From a virus, in IMG/VR virus record IMGVR_UViG_3300025736_000100, positions 1 through 33,011 of that record: DNA of 33,011 nucleotides. One strand, 5' to 3'. This document shows, piece by piece, positions 2,291 to 30,870 of the stretch. Position 1 is the stretch's first letter, and each line of letters begins with the position of its first letter. The translations under genes were made by a program, and so were the position numbers. Below the pieces are notes generated by a model. That model was not told the DNA's origin. It did no database searches and was given only the letters and a program-made list of their open reading frames with translations.

Positions 2291-2608
2291 TTATGCGAAT
2301 GCTCCAGGTGTTGCTCGACCTTGAATCTCGATAACCCTACATTTGTTAGCGTTAGCACTCTGAACCGTCACGGTGACGGTTCCAGTCGTTACAGAACAAG
2401 TAGCAATATCCGTTACTATGATGCTACCACTCGTAGTGTGTACCCAGCTCTTAATCGTTAATAGACCAGTTGGCGACATGCCATAGTCTGCTAAGTCAAA
2501 AGTGAAGGTGTTGTTTTCGTCAGCGGTGTTAGGAGTCATAAAATAAACTCTCTTAATACCGGCGTTTGGCATTACTTCCCAATTTTCTAATACGCTAATT
2601 GCTGTCAT
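2291..2608 (-). CDS. Decoration-like paralogue 5 (105-residue type, copy 3)
   Basis: 105 residues. It shares the whole layout with the next two upstream genes: an N-terminal W.x.PNAG.K segment, P/ANT.D..N, DYG..PTGLL, SWVHTTSGS, a C.V..G.(L/T)TVTV strand, and RVI.I.GRA near the C-terminus. The fold is probably an all-beta sandwich. Start ATG 2608 overlaps the stop of the previous copy as TAATG. Small beta proteins encoded just after the major capsid gene are often head decoration or cement proteins; that role is inferred from position and tandem copies. Confidence 0.65.
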   Translation of the reverse strand: MTAISVLENWEVMPNAGIKRVYFMTPNTADENNTFTFDLADYGMSPTGLLTIKSWVHTTSGSIIVTDIATCSVTTGTVTVTVQSANANKCRVIEIQGRATPGAFA

Positions 2609-2925
2609 TATACAAACACCCCTAGGTCGGCTCGACCGGTTATTTGAATTACCCTAAAGTCGTTGTCTGTTCCTGCCGCTAATGTCACGGTTAGTACGCC
2701 TGCTGATACTGCGCAGGTGTTGAGCTCTGTCGTAACGACGCTTCCACTAGTCGTGTGTACCCAGCTTTCAACTGTTAGTAATCCTGTTGCTGAGATGCCA
2801 TAATCCGTAAGAGTGATTTCTAACGTGTTACCTGCATCTGATGTGTTCGCGGTGGTTAAAAGAACTGTCTTTAAACCATTGTTCGGGGATTGCTCCCATG
2901 CTTTCAATAGTGTAGTTGCTGCCAT
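2608..2925 (-). CDS. Decoration-like paralogue 4 (105-residue type, copy 2)
   Basis: 105 residues, about the same length and motif order as its two flanking copies: WEQSPNNGLK, TANTSDAGNT, DYGISATGLL, ESWVHTTSGS, LTVTLAAGT and RVIQITGRADLGVFV. It overlaps both neighbours by TAATG junctions, so the three copies are translated as a coupled set. The conserved SW(V)xT and GRA positions suggest a common structural core, with variable loops that could tune surface properties. No enzymatic motif is visible. Decoration or minor capsid role is inferred. Confidence 0.65.
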   Translation of the reverse strand: MAATTLLKAWEQSPNNGLKTVLLTTANTSDAGNTLEITLTDYGISATGLLTVESWVHTTSGSVVTTELNTCAVSAGVLTVTLAAGTDNDFRVIQITGRADLGVFV

Positions 2926-3242
2926 TATACAAACACCCCTGCGTCGGCTCGTCCAATTACTTGGATTACCCTTGCGTCGTCGTTTGTTCCTGCTGCTACT
3001 GTTACCGTCAAGACACCAGATGATACTGCTGTGGTGTTTGCTTCTGTGGTTATAATGCTACCGTCTGCGGTTTGAACCCAGCTATCTACAGCTAACAAGC
3101 CAGTTGGATGTATGCCATAAGTTGCTAGTGTTATCGCAATAGAATTGGTTGCGTCGGTAGTATTAGGTAACAAGAACAGCATGGTCTTCAACCCAGCGTT
3201 AGGAAGTCCTTCCCAACTCTTTAATATACTTGTTGCTGTCAT
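2925..3242 (-). CDS. Decoration-like paralogue 3 (105-residue type, copy 1)
   Basis: 105 residues: WEGLPNAGLK, LPNTTDATNS, ATYGIHPTGLL, DSWVQTADGS, LTVTVAAGT, RVIQVIGRADAGVFV. Its C-terminal half is closest to copy 2 (both end in GRAD.GVFV), suggesting a more recent duplication between these two. ATG 3242 has GAGGTAA upstream. See the family note under the tandem paralogue finding; function in virion decoration is an inference from location. Confidence 0.65.
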   Translation of the reverse strand: MTATSILKSWEGLPNAGLKTMLFLLPNTTDATNSIAITLATYGIHPTGLLAVDSWVQTADGSIITTEANTTAVSSGVLTVTVAAGTNDDARVIQVIGRADAGVFV

Positions 3243-7445: not shown

Positions 7446-7552
7446 TCTTCATCCTCGAACAAGTGGTCCATACCAATAACCTTACCTTCAACGCCTGCTA
7501 ATACTGCGTCATCCTCTTCATCATCCATCCTTTTGAATTCTTCTTCTAACAT
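7442..7552 (-). CDS. 36-residue acidic protein
   Basis: MLEEEFKRMDDEEDDAVLAG... : 36 residues, about a third Asp or Glu. The start overlaps the MuF-zeta stop as TAATG and the stop overlaps the next gene as ATGA, so it is tightly coupled on both sides, the main support for its being real. Acidic mini-proteins next to toxin domains can be antitoxins or DNA mimics; with no family match here, that is only a possibility. Confidence 0.6.
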   Translation of the reverse strand: MLEEEFKRMDDEEDDAVLAGVEGKVIGMDHLFEDEE

Positions 7553-9072
7553 TATAGGTACCCCCGCTTGGCTATGTCTTTATTTTCAGCTAACATCTTA
7601 GCTGGCATAGTGTTGTCTTTCCTTGTGAATGAGCCGAAATGTTGGCTCAGTTTATCAACTGTAGATTTAATCATGTGTTCGTAATCAACTATCATCTCGT
7701 AGGGTGTGTATCGTCCTTCTTCGACGTATCTTTTAGCCGCCATTGTCATTGCTTGGTCTACTGGAACATCAACGAATATGAGTGTGGACTTGTAACCTTT
7801 AGCGTGTAGTTTATCAACAACCTTCGCTGACTTGTCGTGGTTCTTCATCGTCCCATCAATTATGAAGTTTGCTCCTTGTTTTGATGCTTCTGCTATGAAT
7901 GTCTGATTAAGTGTAGTGCTCTCTTTGTGTACTATCTGTGAGCCTTTACCACCGTTGTACTCTGGTAGTCGCTCTTTAATCTGGTCTGCGGCTAACATTA
8001 CATATCGTTCTCCAGCGTTGTCTTCTAATAATAACTTGTTGTCTCCTACTTGTTTGAAGTCGTTTTGTGTTGCGAATGTTTTACCAGCTCCTGGTAGTCC
8101 TGCCATGAATACAACTTTTGATTGACCGTCGTTAGGTGCGGCTTGTTTGATTGCATTCGCGTAATCTCCTGCTATCTCTTTGTGTACTTTTACACGTGCC
8201 GGATTCCATGTCATAGTCGCATGATTGTAGTTATTACCTAATGTATCTTTACCTGCTTGTACAAGCCTTGTTTGCTCCTTCATACTCTTGATGTCAGCGG
8301 GTTTAATGTATGAGTCCAACTCTTTAGCCAACTCGTGTTTATTCTGCTGTCTGGTGGGTGATTGAGGGCTGCTTGCTAACCTGCCGGTTTTTGGGTCTTT
8401 GTACCAATAACGGTAGTGTCCTGGGCCACCTGTTCGTTTAACATACTTTGCTTTCATCCCAACAGATAATTCTGTGATGGACTTCTCTTGAATGTAAACA
8501 CACCTACTCCTACAATTAGGGTGAGCTGGTGGCATATCAAACTCTTGACCTTCATATTTGAATCGTTGGTCGATGCCGATTGTTTTACCATCAAGTGCTC
8601 TACATACAGGGCTTGTTCTATTGTCAAGGTGTGCGTCCCATCGTTTCCTTAACTTCAACCCGCTTTCACGAGCCGCATCTAAGTGTCCCATGTTTTCGGC
8701 TCTGTTCATTTCAGTTCTTGCTATCATCCTAGCTCTGTCTACTGATACGTCGAGGACTTTCTTTACACGGTCCTTCATAGCCTCAACTGACTCGAGGTTC
8801 AGTAGGCTTTGTGATAACTCCTTACGTAACTTGTTAGAAGCTTCATCCTTCAAATCTTTAATGTTCTCAAAGGTGAATCGTTCAAGCATGTCGTATCTCG
8901 CAGGGTTACCGGTAAAGTTCATATTAAATTGTATGCCTAAAGCATCTAATCCTTCCTCATAGCTTTCTCTAAGGTATTTGCTTATCAGTGGGCTAAGTAC
9001 ACCCACGTCTAAGATGCTGACGAACTTAATCGTCAAGTCTTCAATTATCCCTTTGAGTTCAGCGTCAATCAT
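7552..9072 (-). CDS. MuF/SPP1 gp7-type minor head protein fused to a zeta-toxin-like kinase
   Basis: 506 residues in two parts. Residues about 60-195 are a MuF/gp7 head morphogenesis domain: ARTEMNRAENMGHLDAARE (118-136), HLDNRTSPVCRALDGK (148-163) and PPAHPNCRSRCVY (181-193). Residues about 318-480 are a P-loop kinase of zeta toxin type: Walker A GLPGAGKT (325-332), MLAADQIKERLPEY with likely base Asp363, HKESTTL, IIDGT, and RYVEEGRYTP near 448-457. The MuF part is found with portal proteins at the vertex; the toxin part in known zeta enzymes phosphorylates UDP-sugars. A linker at 205-240 joins them. ATG 9072 overlaps the portal stop. Confidence 0.85.
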   Translation of the reverse strand: MIDAELKGIIEDLTIKFVSILDVGVLSPLISKYLRESYEEGLDALGIQFNMNFTGNPARYDMLERFTFENIKDLKDEASNKLRKELSQSLLNLESVEAMKDRVKKVLDVSVDRARMIARTEMNRAENMGHLDAARESGLKLRKRWDAHLDNRTSPVCRALDGKTIGIDQRFKYEGQEFDMPPAHPNCRSRCVYIQEKSITELSVGMKAKYVKRTGGPGHYRYWYKDPKTGRLASSPQSPTRQQNKHELAKELDSYIKPADIKSMKEQTRLVQAGKDTLGNNYNHATMTWNPARVKVHKEIAGDYANAIKQAAPNDGQSKVVFMAGLPGAGKTFATQNDFKQVGDNKLLLEDNAGERYVMLAADQIKERLPEYNGGKGSQIVHKESTTLNQTFIAEASKQGANFIIDGTMKNHDKSAKVVDKLHAKGYKSTLIFVDVPVDQAMTMAAKRYVEEGRYTPYEMIVDYEHMIKSTVDKLSQHFGSFTRKDNTMPAKMLAENKDIAKRGYL

Positions 9073-15854: not shown

Positions 15855-17714
15855 TTATACCAACTCCACGTAACTGTTGTCTGGGTCAAACCATAAGTTA
15901 TCTCCATCGACTGCGTGCCCTATGATTCTTACTATACCAGCACTAGTCGTTGGAGCAGTAGCTGTTGGATTACCAGGCGTCTCACTAATGTATAATATGT
16001 CGCCTGCTGTCCAAGCCCATGTGTCATCTCTTATGAATCCTTTTAATAGGAATATATGAGCAGCGTCCGGACTTGCTACGGTGCCTGTTGCCATTGCTAT
16101 CATTGTGTCAGCTGTTGCGGCCGCGCTTGCGTCTGCTTGCCACATCTTTCCGTCGGCTGCTTTTAAGTAACATATATCTCCTATGACCATTTGTTCTCCT
16201 GCTGTGAATGATGCGGATATTCCTTCGTATGTTTCGTCAGTGTCTGGTGTTGGGTCCCATACTAAGTCTGTGGTTGAGCCAGTATATCCTGTATATCCGG
16301 TGTAGCCTGTTGGGCCGGTGACTGTACTTGCAGCACCTGTATATCCGGTGTAGCCTGTTGGGCCGGTGACTGTACTTGCAGCACCTGTATAACCTGTATA
16401 TCCAGTCGGACCAGTTACTGTACTTGCAGCACCTGTATAACCTGTATATCCAGTCGGACCAGTTACTGTACTTGCAGCACCTGTATAACCTGTATATCCA
16501 GTCGGACCAGTTACAGTACTTGCAGCTCCAGCTGAACCTGTGTAACCAGTATATCCAGTAGGACCTGTGACTGTGCTAGCAGCTCCAGCTGAACCTGTGT
16601 AACCAGTCGGACCAGTAACTGTGCTAGCAGCTCCAGCTGTACCTGTGTAACCTGTATAGCCTGTGTAACCAGTAGGACCTGTGACTGTGCTAGCAGCTCC
16701 AGCTGACCCAGTATATCCAGTCGGACCAGTAACTGTGCTAGCAGCTCCAGCTGAACCTGTGTAACCAGTATATCCAGTAGGACCTGTGACTGTACTTGCA
16801 GCTCCAGCTGACCCAGTATATCCAGTCGGACCAGTAACTGTGCTAGCAGCTCCAGCTGTACCTGTGTAACCAGTATAGCCTGTGTAACCAGTAGGACCTG
16901 TGACTGTGCTAGCAGCACCTGTATAACCTGTATATCCAGTCGGACCAGTTACAGTACTTGCAGCTCCAGCTGAACCAGTATAACCTGTATATCCAGTCGG
17001 ACCAGTTACTGTACTTGCAGCTCCAGCTGACCCAGTATATCCAGTATATCCTGTGTAACCCGTGTAACCAGTTGTTCCTATTGATACCCATAAGTCCCAT
17101 TCAGCATCAACACCTGGTGTTTTATTAAGACTCGATGAATTTGCAACATATGATGAACCATTATATCCTACAGCATCGAATTCGTCATAATTAGTTCCAC
17201 TATCCCATGCACCTAGCCAAGTAATTCCTGAACCTGCAGCACCTGTGTAACCTGTATAGCCTGTATATCCAGTTGGGCCTGTGACTGTACTTGCAGCTCC
17301 TGTTGTTCCTGTAGCACCAGTATAGCCGGTATATCCAGTTGGACCTGTGACAGTACTAGCAGCTCCAGTATAGCCTGTGTATCCAGTTGCACCTTGAGCG
17401 CCTGTGTAACCGGTATATCCTGTAGGGCCTGTGACTGTACTTGCAGCACCAGCTGACCCGGTAGCGCCAGTTGCTCCAGTAGCACCTGTACTACCAGCAC
17501 CTGCAGGACCAGTAGGACCTGTTGCGCCTGTTGGACCAGTTCCGCCAGCACCAGTAGCACCAGTGGCACCAGTAGGACCTGATGCTCCTGTAGCGCCAGT
17601 CGCACCTGTAGGACCAGTAGGACCAGTCGCACCTTGAGGACCAGCAGTTAAACCAACATCAGCAGTAACAAAAGTAGTCTCAGAAGCAGTAGTCACATCA
17701 ATATATGTAGTCAT
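15855..17714 (-). CDS. Collagen-like fibre protein with CBM-like insertion
   Basis: 619 residues. Residues 25-162 and 213-480 are continuous Gly-X-Thr triplets, mostly GPT, GYT and GAT. Within them the block [11 protein letters not shown] occurs 17 times. Residues about 163-212 break the triplets with [20 protein letters not shown]...W..W, resembling a CBM5/12-type carbohydrate-binding module. Residues 480-619 are a beta-rich tip with [20 protein letters not shown] and a G.I..G(H)AV pattern seen in phage fibre ends. A trimeric collagen helix is expected. GTG-preceding neighbour overlaps by ATGA; ATG 17714 has GAGGTGA. Confidence 0.9.
16275..17642 (-). repeat. Tandem DNA repeats coding for Gly-X-Thr triplets
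   Basis: Higher-order units of about 48-60 bases encode [16 protein letters not shown]. Several adjacent units are nearly identical at DNA level, for example around 16330-16500, where copies keep the same codons. This implies recent slippage or gene-conversion events and a length-variable fibre. The regular 9-base period also keeps other frames open, giving false reading frames. Confidence 0.85.
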
Positions 17715-19973: not shown

Positions 19974-20092
19974 ACGTTCATCCACCAGCCGCATGCATCA
20001 CAATAATGTTGTACGACAACTTTCTTTCCATCGATTAACTTTTCAGCCACCGATGTCACTTCTCCACAAATATCACATCTACCAGTCGACAA
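19970..20092 (-). CDS. 40-residue zinc-ribbon protein, TTG start
   Basis: STGRCDICGEVTSVAEKL ... YCDACGWWMNV: two CxxC pairs about 22 residues apart, a compact zinc ribbon. TTG 20092 has AAGGTGG about five bases upstream, inside the 3' end of the terminase gene; GTG 20101 is an alternative. The stop overlaps the next ATG as ATGA. Probably a small nucleic-acid- or protein-binding adaptor. Confidence 0.6.
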   Translation of the reverse strand: MSTGRCDICGEVTSVAEKLIDGKKVVVQHYCDACGWWMNV

Positions 20093-21389
20093 TATAACCA
20101 CCTTGTTTAGCCCCTTGGGCTGCTAATGCTAATGCGTCACAATAATCATCATGACCGTACTCTGAATGGTGTAGCTTAACCGCGCCACCGTCAGTTGTCT
20201 CATAACGGAAGTCCCTTAGTTGTGTTACTAACTTATGGTTCTTAGGAAATATAAGCTCCTTCTGCTCCATTAAGACTTTCAAGTTGCTGAATATATCTAG
20301 TTTGCTTTTGATGGTGAAGGTGACGCCTATAACCTTATCAGCTATTGCGACGGCTGGCGCCCTGACTCCGGGCGTCTGCTTCAATGGATTGTGACTGCGC
20401 GCCAATACATCTTTTACTCCTGCGCCTAGTCCTGTCTCGTCAATGTATATCTTCTTGAAGTGCCAAGTCTTATCCATGATGTTTATCTTGTCAATGATGA
20501 AGTCCAAGGTAGCCTTTGGTATGTCTATTATCTTAACTATCTTACATGGTTCGTTTGGTTCCTTCTCCATGACCATCATGCAAGTGCTGTCTTGTCCCAT
20601 ACGCGCTATGTCTGCTCCTAAGTAATAGGATACGCCAGGCTTTGGCTTGTCCTTCTGGTATACATCCTTTGCGCATGAGTCTACTAAGTCATAACCGAAG
20701 TATGCGTCTTCGTCTGCTATGAACATTGCTTCCATTTCTGTTTGGAATTGTGTGACTGGTACTTGGGCTCTTACTTCGTCTACGTATGATTGCTTGACTA
20801 TGCCTTGCTCCACTGCCGTCTTCCATGCTATCTGGTGTAGCTTATACTCTCCACCTCTGAATGACTCGTAGAAGTGATTCATTCCCCTTGGTGTTCCTAT
20901 CTTTATGACTTTGGCGCTAGTGGTTGCGCCCATTGGTAATATGACACTGTGTACTATGCTGTCTTTGATGGAGCCTGCTTCCTCTAGTATTATAGCGTGG
21001 GCTGTGTATCCTCTTAGGTTCTCTCCTGTGTCTCCCGTGGTGTCACAGATGATGCTACTCCCGTTGCTGAAGTAGAACTCTCTTTGTGTCTGACGCTTAA
21101 TATAGAAGTCTGAAGTAACAAACATTTGTGCTATAGTATTGGTGATCTTCTCCGCTATCAACCCTGCTTGTCGGTCGGTAGGAGCAATGATTAGAATCTT
21201 CTGGTTTGGTTTTAAGTCTGCTAGTATTATAGCCACCTTGGCAGTCGCTTCTGACTTACCGCTTTGACGACAGAACACTGCTACTACATACTGATGGTTT
21301 ATACAATCGAAGGCGTACGCCAACTGGTAGTCAGTCAGCTTAAACTTCATCATGACTTTGCAATAATCGTATATGTTTTGTTTCTTCAA
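20079..21389 (-). CDS. terL: Terminase large subunit
   Basis: 436 residues. ATPase domain: Q-motif region KLTDYQLAYAF, Walker A variant CRQSGKS (40-46), Walker B AIILEEAG (132-139) and coupling motif GTPRG (165-169). RNase H-like nuclease: Asp260 (LGADIARMGQDS), Asp317 (IYIDETGLG) and Asp414/415/418 (HDDYCDAL). The protein pumps DNA into the prohead and cuts it. TTG 21389 starts it, overlapping the upstream small gene as TTGA, with GGTGA about 4-5 bases upstream. It follows the putative small subunit, with a cysteine mini-protein between them. Confidence 0.95.
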   Translation of the reverse strand: MKKQNIYDYCKVMMKFKLTDYQLAYAFDCINHQYVVAVFCRQSGKSEATAKVAIILADLKPNQKILIIAPTDRQAGLIAEKITNTIAQMFVTSDFYIKRQTQREFYFSNGSSIICDTTGDTGENLRGYTAHAIILEEAGSIKDSIVHSVILPMGATTSAKVIKIGTPRGMNHFYESFRGGEYKLHQIAWKTAVEQGIVKQSYVDEVRAQVPVTQFQTEMEAMFIADEDAYFGYDLVDSCAKDVYQKDKPKPGVSYYLGADIARMGQDSTCMMVMEKEPNEPCKIVKIIDIPKATLDFIIDKINIMDKTWHFKKIYIDETGLGAGVKDVLARSHNPLKQTPGVRAPAVAIADKVIGVTFTIKSKLDIFSNLKVLMEQKELIFPKNHKLVTQLRDFRYETTDGGAVKLHHSEYGHDDYCDALALAAQGAKQGGYIVDW

Positions 21390-22201: not shown

Positions 22202-22627
22202 CTATGTATTTAATGTATTATATGTACTCAACAACGACTTAACCACTCGCTTCGCCTCAACCCGGTTAATACAATAAAAAACTGGTATGCCATACTTTAT
22301 ATGAAGCGTGAATAATATCTTGTTAATCACATAACCTTTCATTCTGCTGTGGTGACTGCCGTCGAAGTCTTTGTTTTCAACCGTTGTATTGCTTCCTTCA
22401 ATGACTATGGCAAAGTAATCAAGTAATGTCGCTCTTGCTAATTCTTTTTTGAATCGTGCATGACCTCCGCCTAATGTTCCGAATAAGTCACTGCAACTTT
22501 TTCTTTCTATGCCTATTTTTGTTTCGAATCCTTCAATGCTGTAATCGCCTACGTCTAACTTTTTGGTTATTGTGTCTTTGCCTTTGAATAAAGGTTTTTG
22601 TTCTCTGGTGTCAACGACTATTTTCAT
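22202..22627 (-). CDS. XPF/ERCC4-family nuclease
   Basis: 141 residues, essentially one ERCC4 nuclease domain. Motifs: VVDTREQ (4-10) with metal ligand Asp6, DVGDYSI (25-31), and IGIERKSCSDL (38-48), the E-R-K-x3-D core of the family. The usual (HhH)2 DNA-binding part and helicase domain are missing, as in short viral and plasmid members. It would cut branched or flap DNA during replication, recombination or before packaging. ATG 22627 overlaps the preceding zinc ribbon as ATGA. Confidence 0.9.
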   Translation of the reverse strand: MKIVVDTREQKPLFKGKDTITKKLDVGDYSIEGFETKIGIERKSCSDLFGTLGGGHARFKKELARATLLDYFAIVIEGSNTTVENKDFDGSHHSRMKGYVINKILFTLHIKYGIPVFYCINRVEAKRVVKSLLSTYNTLNT

Positions 22628-23782: not shown

Positions 23783-25525
23783 TTAACAATTTGTCCATGC
23801 TAATAAGTCCATTTGTGCTTTATGGTTCTTGGTTGTTGTTGCGTCTGGCTTATAGTTAAGGAACTCTTGTAGTTCATTCCACATCTTGTTTAGTATGATG
23901 CTGTGCATGTTGAAGTCTTTGGCTCGGAATTCTTCTTCGGTGCAATACTTCACGCTTTGGCCTACGCCATAATACTTGTTTGGTATTAGTATGTGTTTGC
24001 CTGCACCATATTTTCTTGCTATGACTGCTTGTAATTGATTCTTTTGTTTATAGCTGTCTGGTGTTCCTACTATGAACTTCCTTGCTACTAATGATAAGTC
24101 CTTGTCTATTTCATCATAAACAATCTTTCTTATTTCAGGGTATGAATGCTGTATTGTCCCATTGATTATGTTGTCACGCATGTATTTGTTGAATATGTAT
24201 AATCCAATCCCGCTTCCGTCTCTCTTAATCATTGGTAGGCCTTTGATTATTAGTTCGTTTTCCTCTGTTACCAACATATAATTCTTCTTCTTGTAATGTT
24301 CTCCTGTCTTGAAGAACCAAATATGCTTTATGCGGTAGTCTATTCCTAGGTCGAATGTGTCGACTGGAAAAGGCACTTTGGTTTTAAGGAATGCTATGAC
24401 TCGGTCTTTGACTGCCATCATTGATGGTTCGTCTTTGAATGGGTCTTGTATGTAGACTGAATCTGTGTCTGTGTATAAGAATTTGTATCCGTAAGCCTCA
24501 AATATTTGTTTTGTGTATTTGATACATTTCCTTCCCATGGCGGTGCAGTCGCTTGCTGTCTTGTAGTTGTATAAATTCTTGAATACAGGATTACCGGTTA
24601 CGCCGTAGAAAGTGTTCATGACAATCTTGATAGCATACTCTAAAGGATTCTTAACCTTCTTGAATCCAACACGTTTCTTATACAGCATATGGAGGACTGA
24701 TTCCTTAACTCCCATGCCTGTATTGTTGTATGTTCCTTGTAAGTCAAAGAATAAGTCTCTAGCCCATCCACCAGTATTAATAGGAGTTGATAGGTTGCCC
24801 ATGATATACATGTGTGGGTATAGGCTGTTGAAGTCTAAACAATAGATGTTTCCATGCGCTTCTCCGACTGTTGGTTCAGCGACGAATCCTCCTTTGAAAG
24901 GCTTCCTGGTGGTCTTGTCATCATATTCTTCTTTTATTCCTGTTTGGTGGCACATGACCTTGTAGGTGTAGGTTGCGACACTGCTCTTAAGCCATGATAG
25001 GTTGTCTTGGTCTGCTTTGCTAACGAACTCCTTGAATGGTGTGAAGTATTCGTGGAACTTACGGAATAATGCTGCTGTCACTTTGATGTCTTGTATGTTA
25101 TATACTTCAATGTATGCTAGTTCTTCGTCTGTCCATTCATCCTTCTTTAAGATGTCATAGTCGAACTCTTCATCTTTGAATTCAGATAGGTTCAGATGCT
25201 TAGCAATATTCGCTAGTGATAAGCTGGTGTTGTCCAAGCCGATGTATTCGCCTCTCTTCTTAGCTACTTCTCGCAAGTCGATGTTGTTGTGATATTTTAA
25301 GCTGACGCCAGCCCTTTTCAGTATTGGGTCGTCGTAATGCCAATTGTTAAACCCAACAATTATCTTATGCTTCCTGAACAGCTCCTTTATCTCTGTTAGT
25401 TGATGGTATGTGTAGAAGTGTTCTTTGTCTGATTCTAACTCATACATCGCAATAGTCCGGAACTTATCTTTGGTTGTGTCGAATTGCCCGTAAGCCCAAG
25501 TCTCGATATCGTAGATTAAAGTCAT
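23783..25525 (-). CDS. polB: Family B DNA polymerase, short form
   Basis: 580 residues against 750-900 for most replicative PolB. Exonuclease: Exo I YDIET (Asp6, Glu8), Exo II FNNWHYDD (59-66), Exo III YNIQD (142-146). Polymerase: motif A DFNSLYP with Asp231, motif B KNPLEYAIKIVMNTFYG (292-308), motif C YTDTDS with Asp353/Asp355. All catalytic residues are present; the size reduction is mainly in the N-terminal and fingers/thumb regions. It copies the viral genome and should proofread. ATG 25525 overlaps the DpdA-like stop as ATGA. Confidence 0.95.
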   Translation of the reverse strand: MTLIYDIETWAYGQFDTTKDKFRTIAMYELESDKEHFYTYHQLTEIKELFRKHKIIVGFNNWHYDDPILKRAGVSLKYHNNIDLREVAKKRGEYIGLDNTSLSLANIAKHLNLSEFKDEEFDYDILKKDEWTDEELAYIEVYNIQDIKVTAALFRKFHEYFTPFKEFVSKADQDNLSWLKSSVATYTYKVMCHQTGIKEEYDDKTTRKPFKGGFVAEPTVGEAHGNIYCLDFNSLYPHMYIMGNLSTPINTGGWARDLFFDLQGTYNNTGMGVKESVLHMLYKKRVGFKKVKNPLEYAIKIVMNTFYGVTGNPVFKNLYNYKTASDCTAMGRKCIKYTKQIFEAYGYKFLYTDTDSVYIQDPFKDEPSMMAVKDRVIAFLKTKVPFPVDTFDLGIDYRIKHIWFFKTGEHYKKKNYMLVTEENELIIKGLPMIKRDGSGIGLYIFNKYMRDNIINGTIQHSYPEIRKIVYDEIDKDLSLVARKFIVGTPDSYKQKNQLQAVIARKYGAGKHILIPNKYYGVGQSVKYCTEEEFRAKDFNMHSIILNKMWNELQEFLNYKPDATTTKNHKAQMDLLAWTNC

Positions 25526-26799
25526 AGTAATCCCCTGTGTTCAGCAATCACTTTAAGGCTTGAATCCTTTACACCTGGGAACTCCTTCCTTAACATCTCT
25601 AACTTCTCTTCGACTAATGCTTTTTGGTCTACTTCCTCTGCTCCTGACTCCTGATTGAAGAAGTTGGTTAGCTTTTGACTCTTGATTACATTCTTGCGAT
25701 AGCTCTCTTGCTTACCAAACTTTGCTACTTCGTCAATGTAATCCATGACGTTAAGGAACTTCTGACCAAAGTGTTTGAAGCAGAACTTCCTGAATATTTC
25801 CTCGTCATCTCTTATTGCGTTCAAGTACTTGACGTATTTGATTATCTGGTATAGGTTGTGTAATGTGATTAGGAATCCTGGTGGACTCCTTGTGTCCCAC
25901 TCATCATATGTTAGGTGCTTATGCTCTATCTTATTACAGACTGGGCAGTCACATGCTAAAGTCTTTAACTTGACGGTGTTCCTTGCTCCAAAGTCCCAGT
26001 TGTTCTTGAATTCATATGGGTCAAAGTAAGTGAAGTACTGCCTTCCAACTGTTGCCGTGCTACTATCAACAGTGACGGTTGACTTGAAGAACTTAGCGAC
26101 GTAGCAAGACATAGCTAATGATTCAAAACCACTAATCTGTAATATGTGTATTGGTTTGTCAGTCATGCCTCTGTCAATGAGGTTTGCGGCGTGTGTTGCT
26201 ATCTGTTTGATATCATGGCTTGGCTTAGGACTAAGGCTCCAACCAGCAAACTCTCGTCCTTTATCCTTCTCCACCTGTAGCATTGCTTCAGTCCATTCCT
26301 CCTGTCGATTGACTGTGTCGCCTTGTATGACACCCATCAATGTAAAGTCAGGATTGGTCCAGTTATCCAATGCTACCTTAGCGTTAACAATAGTCTTATT
26401 AAGTGCTTCAGTGAATACTTCTGGTGTTGTCTCACCGAATTGTGCGCTTCCTTCAATCTTCTTGAACGGCGGACAATCTAATATTAGTCCTGTGTCACAA
26501 TTCTTTTGTTGCCAAGTGATTACGTCTAATGGGTCTAGGTTTGCGTCTTGCGTGATATTCTGGAACCCACCACTGTCACCTTTTATCTTTATTTCAGGGC
26601 TTAACCCTGCTTCTCCTCTTAAATCCTTATATTTGCGTCCGTAGTAGTATGAGATTAGCATTTGCGGATAGTAGTAAGAGCTCTTATCTTTGTCCAGAAA
26701 GTTCTGGTTGTAACCAAATACTTTCTTTAGCTCTTCCACCGGTGTCCCGTTGTCCAAATCGCTTGTTCCTACTGCTGGTATGTATGTTAAATAACTCAT
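25522..26799 (-). CDS. dpdA: DpdA/TGT-like 7-deazaguanine transglycosylase
   Basis: 425 residues from ATG 26799 (MSYLTYIPAVG) with GGAGGG seven bases upstream. TGT-fold signatures: GDSGGFQ with Asp75 (74-80), LDCPP (107-111), MGVIQGD (155-161), TVDSST with probable nucleophile Asp245, and the zinc site CDCPVC (283-288) plus His314 in LHNLY. TGT enzymes swap guanine for a 7-deazaguanine base; tRNA TGTs read the RNA loop, while viral DpdA acts on DNA. The PUA-type tRNA domain is absent and the next gene upstream is a precursor transporter, both favouring DpdA. Whether the product is preQ0 or a further modified base cannot be read here. Confidence 0.85.
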   Translation of the reverse strand: MSYLTYIPAVGTSDLDNGTPVEELKKVFGYNQNFLDKDKSSYYYPQMLISYYYGRKYKDLRGEAGLSPEIKIKGDSGGFQNITQDANLDPLDVITWQQKNCDTGLILDCPPFKKIEGSAQFGETTPEVFTEALNKTIVNAKVALDNWTNPDFTLMGVIQGDTVNRQEEWTEAMLQVEKDKGREFAGWSLSPKPSHDIKQIATHAANLIDRGMTDKPIHILQISGFESLAMSCYVAKFFKSTVTVDSSTATVGRQYFTYFDPYEFKNNWDFGARNTVKLKTLACDCPVCNKIEHKHLTYDEWDTRSPPGFLITLHNLYQIIKYVKYLNAIRDDEEIFRKFCFKHFGQKFLNVMDYIDEVAKFGKQESYRKNVIKSQKLTNFFNQESGAEEVDQKALVEEKLEMLRKEFPGVKDSSLKVIAEHRGLL

Positions 26800-26837
26800 C
26801 CTTAGTCCCTCCAATTATTTCTTATGATTATGATAAC

Positions 26838-26855
26838 AAAAAAAAAATAAAGTAT
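26838..26855 (-). terminator. T10 tract behind the transporter gene
   Basis: A run of ten T on the - strand lies about ten bases after the transporter stop, with no GC stem: an archaeal-style terminator. The 40-base gap before the DpdA-like gene is otherwise AT-rich and may also carry its promoter. Confidence 0.5.
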
Positions 26856-27542
26856 TTATGCTGGCACTAGCCCTTTAGCCTTCATCCACTTAGCAATGTA
26901 TACGAATGGTGTGTCCATGATTGCGGTTATTAACTTCATAAGGTATGTTGTTAACATTATCTGAAGGAATATGTCATTACTGAACATTCCCCAGAATGCT
27001 ATGAAGCTAAAGATTACTGAGTCGATTGTCTGACTAGTAAAGGTTGAGGCAACATTTCTGAACCATAACCACTTCTCGCCTGTCATTGCTTTTATCTTAT
27101 GGAATACGTATACATCGTTAAGGTTTGAGATGACATACGCTATCAAAGACGCAATCATTATCCTTGGCATAACTGTAAAGATTGTGCTTAATGCTCCACT
27201 GGCGAAGTCACTGCTATGCGGTATGAATAATGTACAAACATACATCATCGCAGTCGATAATACTGCTACCACTAAGCCTATCTTTATTGCCTTTTGTGCG
27301 TCTTTCTTTCCATGGTTCTCAGATAATATATCTGTAATGAGGAATGATGCCCCGTAGATGATATTACCTAATGTTGCTACCAATCCAAATAGTTGGACTG
27401 TCTTCAACACTTGTATGTTTGCTAGTACAATACCTATACCTGCAAACACAAACAAGCCGTTCTTTCCAAATAGTCTGTAGATTATTATTATCGACGTGAA
27501 TGTCAACAATGCCAACCCTAACCATAATAGTTCGTTTATCAT
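26856..27542 (-). CDS. yhhQ: YhhQ/VUT-family queuosine-precursor (preQ0/preQ1) transporter
   Basis: 228 residues, about six transmembrane helices. Family signatures: TDILSENHGKKDAQKA (about 69-84), NLNDVYVFHKIKAMTGEKW (140-158), LWFRNVASTFTSQTIDSVIF (159-178). YhhQ (DUF165) proteins import the 7-deazaguanine bases preQ0/preQ1. In this virus it would feed the DpdA-like enzyme encoded next in the same direction. ATG 27542 follows a structured 100-base gap with two hairpins and has GGAG about 11 bases upstream. Confidence 0.9.
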   Translation of the reverse strand: MINELLWLGLALLTFTSIIIIYRLFGKNGLFVFAGIGIVLANIQVLKTVQLFGLVATLGNIIYGASFLITDILSENHGKKDAQKAIKIGLVVAVLSTAMMYVCTLFIPHSSDFASGALSTIFTVMPRIMIASLIAYVISNLNDVYVFHKIKAMTGEKWLWFRNVASTFTSQTIDSVIFSFIAFWGMFSNDIFLQIMLTTYLMKLITAIMDTPFVYIAKWMKAKGLVPA

Positions 27543-27572
27543 TTTCGTTGTTTCTCCATATTTTTTTTGTTG

Positions 27573-27647
27573 TTGATTGGGAGTAATGTTCTCCCATCAA
27601 GTGCTAAGTAAGAGAGGGACAAGTTGCCTTGCCCCTCAATTTACTTA
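27573..27647 (-). promoter_or_regulatory. Two-hairpin RNA element before the precursor transporter
   Basis: Hairpin 1 (27605-27647): TAAGTAA/TTACTTA, a 3x2 internal loop, then a ten-pair stem GAGGGGCAAG/CTTGTCCCTC capped by a GCAA (GNRA) tetraloop. Hairpin 2 (27573-27600): TTGAT-GGGAG / CTCCC-ATCAA with one bulge and a seven-base loop, followed by an A-rich stretch before the ribosome site. No U-run follows, so neither is an intrinsic terminator. It could be a riboswitch, a processing site or a stability element. Confidence 0.55.
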
Positions 27648-27983
27648 CAGTGTTAACTCCTTCACACTATATTGTGTGTTGAACTTTTCACCGACCCTGA
27701 TGATTTGTACTTTCGCACCTTCCTCAGGTTTCTTACCTTCTAGCATTGGCCGAAGCTTCTTCTTTAGCCTGTTACTGCTGGTGTTGAAGGTTTTCTCTAC
27801 TTCTTCACCGTCTTCATTGACGCAGTCAGCTTGTAATTCCACTAGTTCGTCGTCAAACTTCTTGACTTTGACTAGCTTCCAGTTCTTGATGACCAATGTT
27901 TTTGGCTCATCGACTGGCAAATCTACAAATTGTCCGCCACTAAATGCTTCGTCCCATCCTACTTCCTCTGGTTTGTCACTCAT
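27645..27983 (-). CDS. Probable single-stranded DNA-binding (OB-fold) protein
   Basis: 112 residues from ATG 27983 (MSDKPEEVGWDEAFSGGQFV), with AAGGAGGTG eight bases upstream; GTG 27992 is a less likely start. The acidic N-terminus is followed by a beta-barrel pattern (TLVIKNWKLVKVKKFDDELV, ELQADCVNEDGEEVEKTF) and basic stretch NRLKKKLRPMLEGKK, as in small OB-fold DNA-binding proteins. It lies after the primase in the replication operon. No exact family match; an SSB role fits location and layout. Confidence 0.6.
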   Translation of the reverse strand: MSDKPEEVGWDEAFSGGQFVDLPVDEPKTLVIKNWKLVKVKKFDDELVELQADCVNEDGEEVEKTFNTSSNRLKKKLRPMLEGKKPEEGAKVQIIRVGEKFNTQYSVKELTL

Positions 27984-28045
27984 TTTTGACACCTCCTTGG
28001 CTTGACTCTATGGTCCTGCCTTATGTTGGTCAAATGTTGTGAATA

Positions 28046-28165
28046 TTATTTTCTACACACCTGACAATATACTCTGCTGTGATGGAAAGCGGTGAATCTT
28101 AATCCACATTTCCTACAGTTATGTATTGCCTGATATGGTTTCCTATTAGGGTTATGTTTTCTCAT
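28046..28165 (-). CDS. 39-residue zinc-ribbon protein
   Basis: MRKHNPNRKPYQAIHNCRKC GLRFTAFHHSRVYCQVCRK: basic N-terminus, then CxxC pairs 15 residues apart. ATG 28165 overlaps the primase-helicase stop as ATGA. A 60-base gap separates it from the ssDNA-binding gene. Probably helps nucleic-acid binding by the replication machinery. Confidence 0.75.
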   Translation of the reverse strand: MRKHNPNRKPYQAIHNCRKCGLRFTAFHHSRVYCQVCRK

Positions 28166-30870
28166 TCTAATATTATGTACTGGCCGTTCTTTGGTTCGTA
28201 CAAATCTCCTTTTGTTTTCATCTCTAAAACCTTCGCGTAAACGACTATTTCGCCGTAGGTATCGAAGTGTTTCACTAATTCTTCAAACGGTATCATCACA
28301 CTCTCTGATTGATGAAAATAGTCAAGAATCATCGAAGCTGATAACATCTCATCATCTATTAATGAAACGGCGTGCGGACGTACCGTAATTTTTTTGTCGG
28401 TGCGTTGAATATTTTCCGGTACGGCTGTATCGGATTTGATTAATAGGTCCGACCCCCTTGATTCTGGCGAATTCTTAGGGCTCACCGAGTCACCTATTAC
28501 GAGGGTGTCGAATAGCCCTAATTTCTCCGGTTTTGTGATTTGATATTTTTCAGGGCTAAGTAGGAGCTTCGTAATAGGTAACGGTCCTTTCCGGTTCATT
28601 TCATCCATTATTTTCTCGGAAGATGGAAGGCTTATTATGTTGATTGCACGCTCCGGAACAAGGTTGTATAGCGTGCTCTTTCCACTTTTATCTTCGGTGA
28701 AGAATCCTACGTCAACTAGCTGGTTCATCATCCCCCACCAGTGGCCTTGACTCTTACCAAGTCGCCTCATTAAATCTTGTATTTCAAACCCGTCTATCCA
28801 GTTCTCAGTTCTTACAAAGTTGATTAAATCTATCTGTGCGTTGGTTAGGCCGCTGAATGTTGCTCCTAGTATGTCTTCGCTGTAGCTTTTTGCTACTTCG
28901 TAGTCGTCCAAGTTACAGATTAGGTACTCTTCGCCCCGGTCGTTCTTGATTATCACTCGTTGTTGTTGGTGCAAATAAGCACTACATTTAATGAGTGTCA
29001 GGAACTTCTGGTAGTCTCGCCTGCTCCTAACGTCAGTTATTGGTATTTGTAGGAACTTATGGTCTGCGAATGGTATCAGGAAGTGGTACGGTTTGAGGAG
29101 TTGTATCGCATCTTTGATGTTCCGCTTCTTGACATCGTCTGTTTGGAAGCTACCAATGTTTACTTTGTCTTGGAAGTCTAAGATGCTAGAGGTCTGCTTT
29201 GATGTTACGTCAGCGCTGATAACCCATGACCTGTTGTTCAGTTGTGTCTCGACCACTCCTTCTGCTTGGTTGGTGATGAATACTGGTTGTCCTTGGGTGG
29301 TTCTCCTTACCTCTTGGTTTCGTTCTACACCGTCGTCACCTGTTACTTTCTCGACTGTTGACAGGTTCAGTTGTCCTTCACTCATCCAAACACGTAATTG
29401 CTCCGTATGCTCGTCCAAGCCTTGTAGTTCCTCAATGAATATTACCCTGCCGTCCATGTTTATCTCTGTGTAATAGTTGAGAGCGCTCTTCGTAATACGG
29501 CTTATTAGGAAGTAATCTTCTCCTTCACTGCCTATTAGGTTGAGTATCTTCTTACAGATGTAAGATTTTCCACTGCTGCTGTCACTGCTTAAGATTATGT
29601 TTTGACTCATTGGGTCTCCTACGACGTTCCAACCGGGTGTTCCTGTACTGCTGGGGAATGATTTGCTAAGCGCCAAGAGGAATATTAACATCTTGGTGTT
29701 GTCTTCGCCCATGATTTCTAAGTCCAAGACGTCTTTAACCTTCTTCAAGATGTTACCATCGGTTAAGAGTTTCAATGCTTCCTTGTTCTTTCCTTTACAG
29801 AAGTTACAAGTGCTTGCTTCGTGGCACTCGATGTCCTTGAGTAGTTGGCAGTTCCAGAAAGGTTTCTCGTGGTTGTATATCCAGTTCAACCATTGGAGTG
29901 CTTCTTCTATGGTGAATTCTGTGCCTACTTGTTTACAGTTGCCGACGTATTCTTCTATTAACACCTTGGCTTGGTTCTTGGTTAGGTTGTCGAGTTTTGC
30001 TGCGATGCTGATGATGCTCGCTCCAGCGCTTCTCTGTCCTTCGCCTAATCCTTCACGAATCTTTAGCACACCTTCTAATTGAATGTATTCTCCTTCGAAT
30101 CGTTCGTGACGCATTTGTTCGTCACCGCGTACCTCTGCTTGTTTAATGAATGATTCAAGCATTTCGCCTAATTCAGCTGGGTTTATGTCGAACAAAGGCA
30201 ACGTCTTTGGATACCTAACGTCTTCTAGGCGTTTGATTAATACTTTGGTGGGTTTATAGTCTTCTTTTTCGATGAAGGTCTTATAGGCCGTGCTGAACGT
30301 TCCCTCCGCAGTCGCCGAGTATTTGCGTCCTCCAATGTCTCTTATAAGATGAGTTGTACCGTTGAAATAGTTGAATATCATTGGCGCACTATCAACCTTG
30401 TTACCTTTACCTCTGTATCGTTCATCGATACCAGCGTAATCAAGAATCTTATTCCAGAACCAGAGCCTGATATGTTTGTAAGAGAAATCATACGATAACG
30501 CCTTACGGAACAGCTCCTTCTGTTCTTCATCATTGAATTCTATCTTCTTAAAGAAAGTGTGAATGTGTACTCCTTTACCACCGGTTGGGCATATCATAAA
30601 TGGGATACTGAAGTTCTCCAATGCTTCGATAACCTTCTTGGCTTCGATGTAGTTGGCTTTGTAACTTCTCCAATCAAAGTCGAATATGACTTCATTAACA
30701 GCGGCGTTACGCTCATCGTGTAACTTGAATTTGTCTGCATTGTACCTTTTTCCTGGCTTGTATGTCTGTAGCTTGCTATCAAAGAAGTTGTTAGCTACTT
30801 TCAAATCACCGGGGAAAGTAATGCTCATGAGCTGTTTGAAATAGGTCTCTTGCTCATTCACTCTCTTCAC
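28162..30870 (-). CDS. Archaeo-eukaryotic primase fused to PriL-like domain and AAA+/SF3-type helicase
   Basis: 902 residues. Residues 55-200: AEP primase with motif I IFDFD (Asp64, Asp66) and motif II GGKGVHIH (97-104). Residues about 265-360: helical segment with Cys341, Cys349, Cys355, Cys358, reminiscent of the PriL C-terminal or PriX domain, where four cysteines hold an Fe-S cluster or zinc. Residues 415-560: helicase, Walker A SSDSSSGKS (428-436), Walker B RVIFIEE (475-481), sensor PVFITNQ (529-535). A winged-helix-like segment follows (about 665-735). It would unwind and prime viral DNA. GTG 30870 has AAGGA upstream; GTG 30861 with GGTGA is an alternative. Confidence 0.85.
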   Translation of the reverse strand: MKRVNEQETYFKQLMSITFPGDLKVANNFFDSKLQTYKPGKRYNADKFKLHDERNAAVNEVIFDFDWRSYKANYIEAKKVIEALENFSIPFMICPTGGKGVHIHTFFKKIEFNDEEQKELFRKALSYDFSYKHIRLWFWNKILDYAGIDERYRGKGNKVDSAPMIFNYFNGTTHLIRDIGGRKYSATAEGTFSTAYKTFIEKEDYKPTKVLIKRLEDVRYPKTLPLFDINPAELGEMLESFIKQAEVRGDEQMRHERFEGEYIQLEGVLKIREGLGEGQRSAGASIISIAAKLDNLTKNQAKVLIEEYVGNCKQVGTEFTIEEALQWLNWIYNHEKPFWNCQLLKDIECHEASTCNFCKGKNKEALKLLTDGNILKKVKDVLDLEIMGEDNTKMLIFLLALSKSFPSSTGTPGWNVVGDPMSQNIILSSDSSSGKSYICKKILNLIGSEGEDYFLISRITKSALNYYTEINMDGRVIFIEELQGLDEHTEQLRVWMSEGQLNLSTVEKVTGDDGVERNQEVRRTTQGQPVFITNQAEGVVETQLNNRSWVISADVTSKQTSSILDFQDKVNIGSFQTDDVKKRNIKDAIQLLKPYHFLIPFADHKFLQIPITDVRSRRDYQKFLTLIKCSAYLHQQQRVIIKNDRGEEYLICNLDDYEVAKSYSEDILGATFSGLTNAQIDLINFVRTENWIDGFEIQDLMRRLGKSQGHWWGMMNQLVDVGFFTEDKSGKSTLYNLVPERAINIISLPSSEKIMDEMNRKGPLPITKLLLSPEKYQITKPEKLGLFDTLVIGDSVSPKNSPESRGSDLLIKSDTAVPENIQRTDKKITVRPHAVSLIDDEMLSASMILDYFHQSESVMIPFEELVKHFDTYGEIVVYAKVLEMKTKGDLYEPKNGQYIILE

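Follow-up and report, generated by a model that had tools for sequence, protein, structure and literature searches.

The 33-kb virus record IMGVR_UViG_3300025736_000100 (positions 1–33,011; all 33,011 nucleotides (nt) are hereafter the window, with coordinates counted from its first letter) is a fragment with unclosed ends that carries, on the minus strand, a transporter gene, yhhQ, followed by a gene for an enzyme with the fold of tRNA-guanine transglycosylases (TGT), here termed dpdA. Together the two genes very probably constitute a minimal viral module for 7-deazaguanine hypermodification of DNA, in which import of the base replaces the operon for its synthesis. YhhQ in the host membrane would bring extracellular preQ0 or preQ1, as the free 7-deazaguanine base, into the cell, and the DpdA-like enzyme, expressed with the family B DNA polymerase (PolB), would link covalently through Asp245 to deoxyribose of the viral DNA, release guanine and set the imported base in its place, leaving the modified viral DNA shielded from restriction. 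Close relatives would make the base from GTP via FolE-QueD-QueE-QueC(-QueF), and the window has a single importer at that locus. The features concerned are the following.

26856–27542, minus strand: yhhQ, YhhQ/COG1738 7-deazaguanine precursor transporter, 228 amino acids (aa); TIGR00697, PF02592 and tree.
26800–26855, minus strand: spacer between yhhQ and dpdA, with a run of ten T 3' of yhhQ and then the GGAGG ribosome site of dpdA; direct reading.
25522–26799, minus strand: dpdA, probable DpdA-like DNA-guanine transglycosylase (TGT fold, zinc site, no PUA domain), 425 aa; motifs, profiles, trees and predicted structure.
23783–25525, minus strand: PolB; PF00136, E 7.4e-21.

The module is best understood by comparison with a related virus record, IMGVR_UViG_3300025131_004984 (L230), which is also a fragment. 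The two share a gene order whose anchors in the window, with their identities to L230, are:

28162–30870, minus strand: AEP-type primase-helicase, 47% (PF01896, E 1.8e-4).
27645–27992, minus strand: small conserved protein of 115 aa, left-hand anchor, 55%.
22202–22627, minus strand: ERCC4/Hef-type nuclease, right-hand anchor, 68% (PF02732, 40.4 bits).
20079–21389, minus strand: large terminase (TerL), 44–51%; closest named relative in Halogranum tailed virus 1 (E 1e-38).

The enzyme and PolB are 63% and 49% identical, respectively. In L230 the order runs primase, small protein, queD-queE-folE-queC-queF, enzyme, PolB, ERCC4, TerL and portal, whereas at the same locus the window reads primase, small protein, yhhQ, enzyme, PolB, ERCC4 and TerL, with yhhQ standing alone in the place of the operon. 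TerL, intact in the window, is divided in L230 (L230:13102-14426) between two overlapping open reading frames (ORFs), reflecting a frameshift, an assembly error or a true split. All five L230 synthesis genes are recognized by NCBIfam models: QueC scores over its cut-off and FolE, which carries an extra N-terminal part, over two subfamily cut-offs, while QueD falls just under (87.0 of 89.25), QueF under (77.9 of 86.9) and QueE well under; QueF is over its Pfam cut-off. Further matches to the Pfam QueF model PF14489, in L225, in the record of L055 and a second one in L230, were below cut-off and were not counted as QueF; those in L225 and the second in L230 land on FolE. Searches of the window, an unclosed fragment, for QueC, QueD and QueF and with local QueE and FolE profiles were empty, in agreement with the first-pass annotation, which had seen no queC/D/E/F-like genes, and YhhQ was not found in the L230 fragment. 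Most simply, import apparently took the place of synthesis at one site in the window's lineage, although the direction of the exchange is not proven. This correspondence at one locus links YhhQ with DNA modification through its genomic location, beyond co-occurrence, and lends good support to the initial proposal of a viral DpdA-like DNA transglycosylase with an importer in place of synthesis genes.

At the family level the window transporter is, on its profile scores, beyond doubt a queuosine precursor transporter (COG1738), as first annotated: it scores 207.8 bits against TIGR00697 (cut-off 50.95) and 167.6 bits against PF02592 (cut-off 27.2) and carries the TDILSE..G and N.NDVYVF motifs, although it remains under the cut-off of the E. 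coli-type YhhQ equivalog NF008406 (63 of 252 bits). A DpdA-like gene lies within 1.5 kb of YhhQ in 32 of 40 viral YhhQ clusters (loci L135-L214), and for 27 of those 32 the examined stretch holds no Que gene, suggesting that import in place of synthesis is a common viral strategy. Viral YhhQ-DpdA pairs are thus already common, and the novelty here is the pairing with another DpdA type: the transglycosylases beside viral YhhQ are usually of phiFN37/Roos/DpdA1-like types, unlike the window enzyme. The window YhhQ groups with three viral YhhQs (L135, L137, L138; support 100/99) that all adjoin a transglycosylase of the phiFN37/Roos/DpdA1-like type, so that one transporter lineage appears to be paired with two transglycosylase types. 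In L225, independently, yhhQ again adjoins an enzyme of the window's clade; its YhhQ is 40% identical to that of the window versus 48% to an archaeal cellular YhhQ, and it keeps QueE, QueC and FolE.

Modification of the DNA with a base drawn from the host preQ0 pool, YhhQ only supplementing this supply or serving another purine, is an unlikely alternative that nonetheless deserves weight. In its favour, archaea make preQ0 for archaeosine. A third group of DpdA systems with neither Que genes nor a transporter is known (PMC6884629), and members of the heterogeneous COG1738 family may transport purines of other kinds (PMC5372724). Against this reading stand the location of yhhQ, precisely where L230 has its synthesis operon, and the strong link of viral YhhQ to DpdA genes noted above. 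Precursor import beside a DNA transglycosylase also has precedents in CAjan, PSTCR7 and phiFN37, whose modules combine YhhQ and DpdA; clamp and PolB genes come after dpdA in CAjan and PSTCR7, and the window dpdA likewise adjoins PolB. The DpdA proteins of these three phages are, however, short, DpdA1-like and barely similar in sequence to the window enzyme, and CAjan and PSTCR7, unlike the window, keep synthesis genes too. The Druskaviridae (HCTV-1, HVTV-1), archaeal tailed viruses of haloarchaea, differ from the window in having the full synthesis pathway, HCTV-1 carrying QueC, QueD, QueE, FolE and QueF in addition to YhhQ.

The partner of YhhQ retains the catalytic equipment of a base-exchange enzyme. 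Its ORF is open from 25522 to 26814 (TTG), but translation likely starts at an ATG (26799) that follows GGAGG, for a product of 425 aa; the gene pair annotated at first is therefore present, with a slightly shorter enzyme. The residues D75 (in DSGGFQ), D108, Q159 and the nucleophile D245 are in place, as is a zinc site of the form C283-x-C285-x2-C288-x25-H314, with 38 residues between the nucleophile and the first cysteine. The corresponding residues of Zymomonas mobilis TGT, which we take to be D280, C318, C320, C323 and H349, show the same CxCx2C-x25-H spacing and the same 38-residue distance. D75, D108, G160, H218 and D245 are invariant in all 50 non-redundant relatives. Compared with its L230 orthologue, the gene differs at 30, 18 and 62% of first, second and third codon positions, respectively, indicating purifying selection. 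The predicted model (predicted local distance difference test 85.6; predicted template modelling score 0.82) superposes on TGT and archaeosine TGT (arcTGT) over residues 1–357 at Z ~27 (VIA), and residues 358–425 form a short helical tail; a domain search found no PUA domain in the enzyme. Foldseek with this model retrieved arcTGT (1.1e-11), the solved DpdA 7ui4 (1.3e-9) and DpdA2 of Vibrio phage nt-1 (3.6e-12), and among viral models also BFVD entry A0A516LV99 (45% identical) and jumbo-phage proteins. A profile of 24 relatives, run against PDB sequences, retrieved arcTGT 1iq8 at 3e-13 and, at 1.5e-5, the DNA-guanine transglycosylase structure 7ui4. Residues, model and domain search thus agree with the first description of a TGT-fold enzyme with intact active and zinc sites and no PUA domain.

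These same features could describe a stripped-down tRNA-guanine transglycosylase acting on host or viral tRNA, with YhhQ boosting the archaeosine or queuosine precursor during infection. The catalytic core and zinc site are TGT-like, arcTGT (TIGR00432; 1iq8, 1j2b) is the closest solved structure, and the family profile is closest to arcTGT. The window enzyme, however, lacks the C-terminal PUA part of arcTGT, no tRNA gene was found in the window, and the scores fall under the tRNA-TGT cut-offs (PF01702, 16.4 of 26.3; TIGR00432, 28.8 of 350; TIGR00430, 24.6 of 306.75 bits). The bacterial DpdA equivalog NF041059 was absent from the enzyme's model matches at E up to 1. Relatives were gathered by alignment-based scans (80 viral loci, eight genome contigs and further loci), which were needed because single-sequence scans of viral and genome contigs found none; the 425-aa query does find a phage homologue at E 1e-9. 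In trees including ten archaeal and two bacterial tRNA-TGTs, the viral clade with the enzyme stood apart from the tRNA-TGTs with support of 100/98, nt-1 DpdA2 falling on the viral side as a very long branch (3.18), and of 100/100 in a second tree. The approximately unbiased (AU) test rejected placement of the window enzyme inside arcTGT (p 1.6e-5), the position that the first-pass annotation had named as contrary to a role in DNA modification. The DNA of nt-1, moreover, is reported to contain dPreQ0 (PMC6884629).

The genomic company of the family points the same way. Among 40 non-redundant clusters of the enzyme family, the examined stretch holds PolB in 29 and a FolE, QueC, QueD or QueE gene in 19, and of six named jumbo phages with a homologue all have QueC and five have QueD; in Motura the homologue lies inside the cluster, between QueC/asnB-like and QueE/FolE genes. 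The gene order in L100, which lies near the window enzyme in the tree (its enzyme 38% and its PolB 37% identical to those of the window), is queD-queE-folE-queF-enzyme-queC-PolB, and that in L101 is queD-queE-folE-queC-enzyme-PolB. There is no reason for PolB and Que neighbours to accompany a tRNA enzyme so regularly, and viral relatives that adjoin PolB while carrying their own preQ0 synthesis, together with the phylogeny, make action on tRNA highly improbable. Membership in this viral clade, beside PolB and preQ0-synthesis genes, instead indicates that the window enzyme is most probably a DpdA-type DNA transglycosylase. Phage dpdA is required for 7-deazaguanine in DNA, and the modification protects against restriction (PMC6884629); a similar shield would be expected for the window's virus.

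Within the DpdA enzymes it is DpdA-like in the broad sense, judged by profile and tree to be apparently nearest DpdA2, but without assignment to any named subfamily. It resembles nt-1 DpdA2 (YP_008125322) and the jumbo-phage homologues (GR7B, Motura, NCTB) in having a TGT fold without PUA and common DSGG[FL]Q and DSST/DAST motifs. Unlike them, it keeps a full zinc site and Q159, and its base-binding loop is rewritten (SPKPS, HILQ); they are carried with QueC/QueD or within a Que cluster, whereas the window record has no Que genes. Its profile relation to DpdA1 (9g, CAjan, Rosebush type) appears distant at best. The transglycosylases of phiFN37, Roos and Salmonella 7-11 showed no detectable relation to the enzyme by profile, and HCTV-1 gp64, a FolE neighbour considered as an archaeal counterpart, had no similarity to it by BLASTP or profile.

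The PolB start and the dpdA stop overlap by 4 nt (ATGA). This overlap, and the frequency of PolB in the clusters, would also suit a route in which PolB incorporates the modified base from a triphosphate during replication, similar to one that was suggested in the past for Campylobacter phages (see PMC6884629). That route is scarcely credible here: the enzyme has the base-exchange residues of TGT and DpdA, deletion of dpdA in CAjan abolishes modification (PMC6884629), and the surroundings of the yhhQ/dpdA pair yielded no gene for a kinase or for nucleotide formation. The overlap shows only co-expression, leaving the earlier suggestion that the base is inserted while PolB copies the DNA without support; the current view of DpdA enzymes is that they swap bases within DNA already made (PMC6884629).

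Several observations weigh against base exchange in DNA supplied by import. The ten-T run between yhhQ and dpdA could end transcription, in which case the two genes would perhaps not share one transcript. Both records are fragments, and Que genes might lie elsewhere in the window's virus, or YhhQ elsewhere in that of L230. A sister position of the window enzyme to the whole of the TGTs is not rejected by the AU test (p 0.064), and the hhalign probabilities of the family profile are higher for arcTGT (100%) than for nt-1 DpdA2 (98.4%) or DpdA1 (85%, E 7e-7), with bacterial TGT at 99.1%.

The importer is predicted to carry a 7-deazaguanine precursor, possibly preQ1 in place of preQ0. E. coli YhhQ serves preQ0 and preQ1 alike (PMC5372724). 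In the enzymes of the window, L230, L100 and L225, the loop corresponding to the G-G-x-x-V of TGT, which contacts the 7-substituent, carries SxKPS, and HxxQ replaces the HxxG of other members, a combination limited to these four of 177 family ORFs. QueF with an NADPH-type motif is present in L230 (ELKTLKMY) and L100 (ESKSLKLY), and likewise in HCTV-1 (ELKSLKYY), while HVTV-1, of the same virus family as HCTV-1, contains dPreQ1 in its DNA (PMC6884629, PMC8651126). The rewritten pocket of the sub-clade, together with QueF in L230 and L100, hints at preQ1 rather than preQ0; the L225 record, which has no QueF, counts against this, and the use of preQ1 by the sub-clade is a tentative and somewhat doubtful proposition.

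The host of the window's virus is likely archaeal. Besides the Halogranum virus match of TerL, the named records matched by the primase-helicase all belong to archaeal viruses, the lowest E-value among the matches listed for the portal is to Halorubrum tailed virus 28 (5e-15), and the window encodes an archaeal-type primase domain as well as an ERCC4/Hef-type nuclease. Sister contigs that had been assigned to Bacilli or Nitrosotalea bins may be viruses placed there in error. L100 and L103 are two contigs of one 'Bacilli' metagenome-assembled genome (CSBr16_96), each with a Que-DpdA module, and are probably virus contigs of uncertain host. Competition with host archaeosine formation, as proposed in the first-pass annotation, is speculation, and the archaeal host is itself something that we infer from gene content.

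The minus-strand order in the window runs from primase-helicase through the 115-aa protein, yhhQ, the TGT-like enzyme, PolB, ERCC4 nuclease and TerL to tail/surface and head genes. One further feature adjoins yhhQ.

27543–27644, minus strand: structured leader upstream of yhhQ, with two stable hairpins (z -5.5; no shuffle equally stable).

The leader, sought for a preQ1 or other riboswitch, had no Rfam match and is possibly a terminator plus regulatory element; the corresponding leader of L230 has a short hairpin only. Also on the minus strand are a Mu F-like head-morphogenesis protein fused to a zeta-toxin-type kinase domain (7552–9072; PF06414, 105 bits), a tandem triplication of three successive similar ORFs of 105 aa each at 317-nt spacing (2291–3242), and a collagen-like tail fibre bearing long 48/57-nt repeat arrays (15855–17714), which adjoins G8-domain, laminin-G-like and glycosyltransferase-TPR proteins in an unusual surface gene set.

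The presence in two related viruses of the same gene order, with a five-gene synthesis operon in one and a single importer in the other, constitutes an apparent natural experiment, and implies that the restriction shield of a virus can depend on a base from outside the cell. The sub-clade of TGT-like DpdA whose base pocket is altered, meanwhile, provides a direct test case for the choice between preQ0 and preQ1. Should the sub-clade indeed use preQ1, the window's virus would have lost QueF with the remainder of the operon and would need to import preQ1 from the environment. To our knowledge archaea are thought to make preQ0, not preQ1, and protection of the DNA of an archaeal virus would then rest on a bacterially made base.

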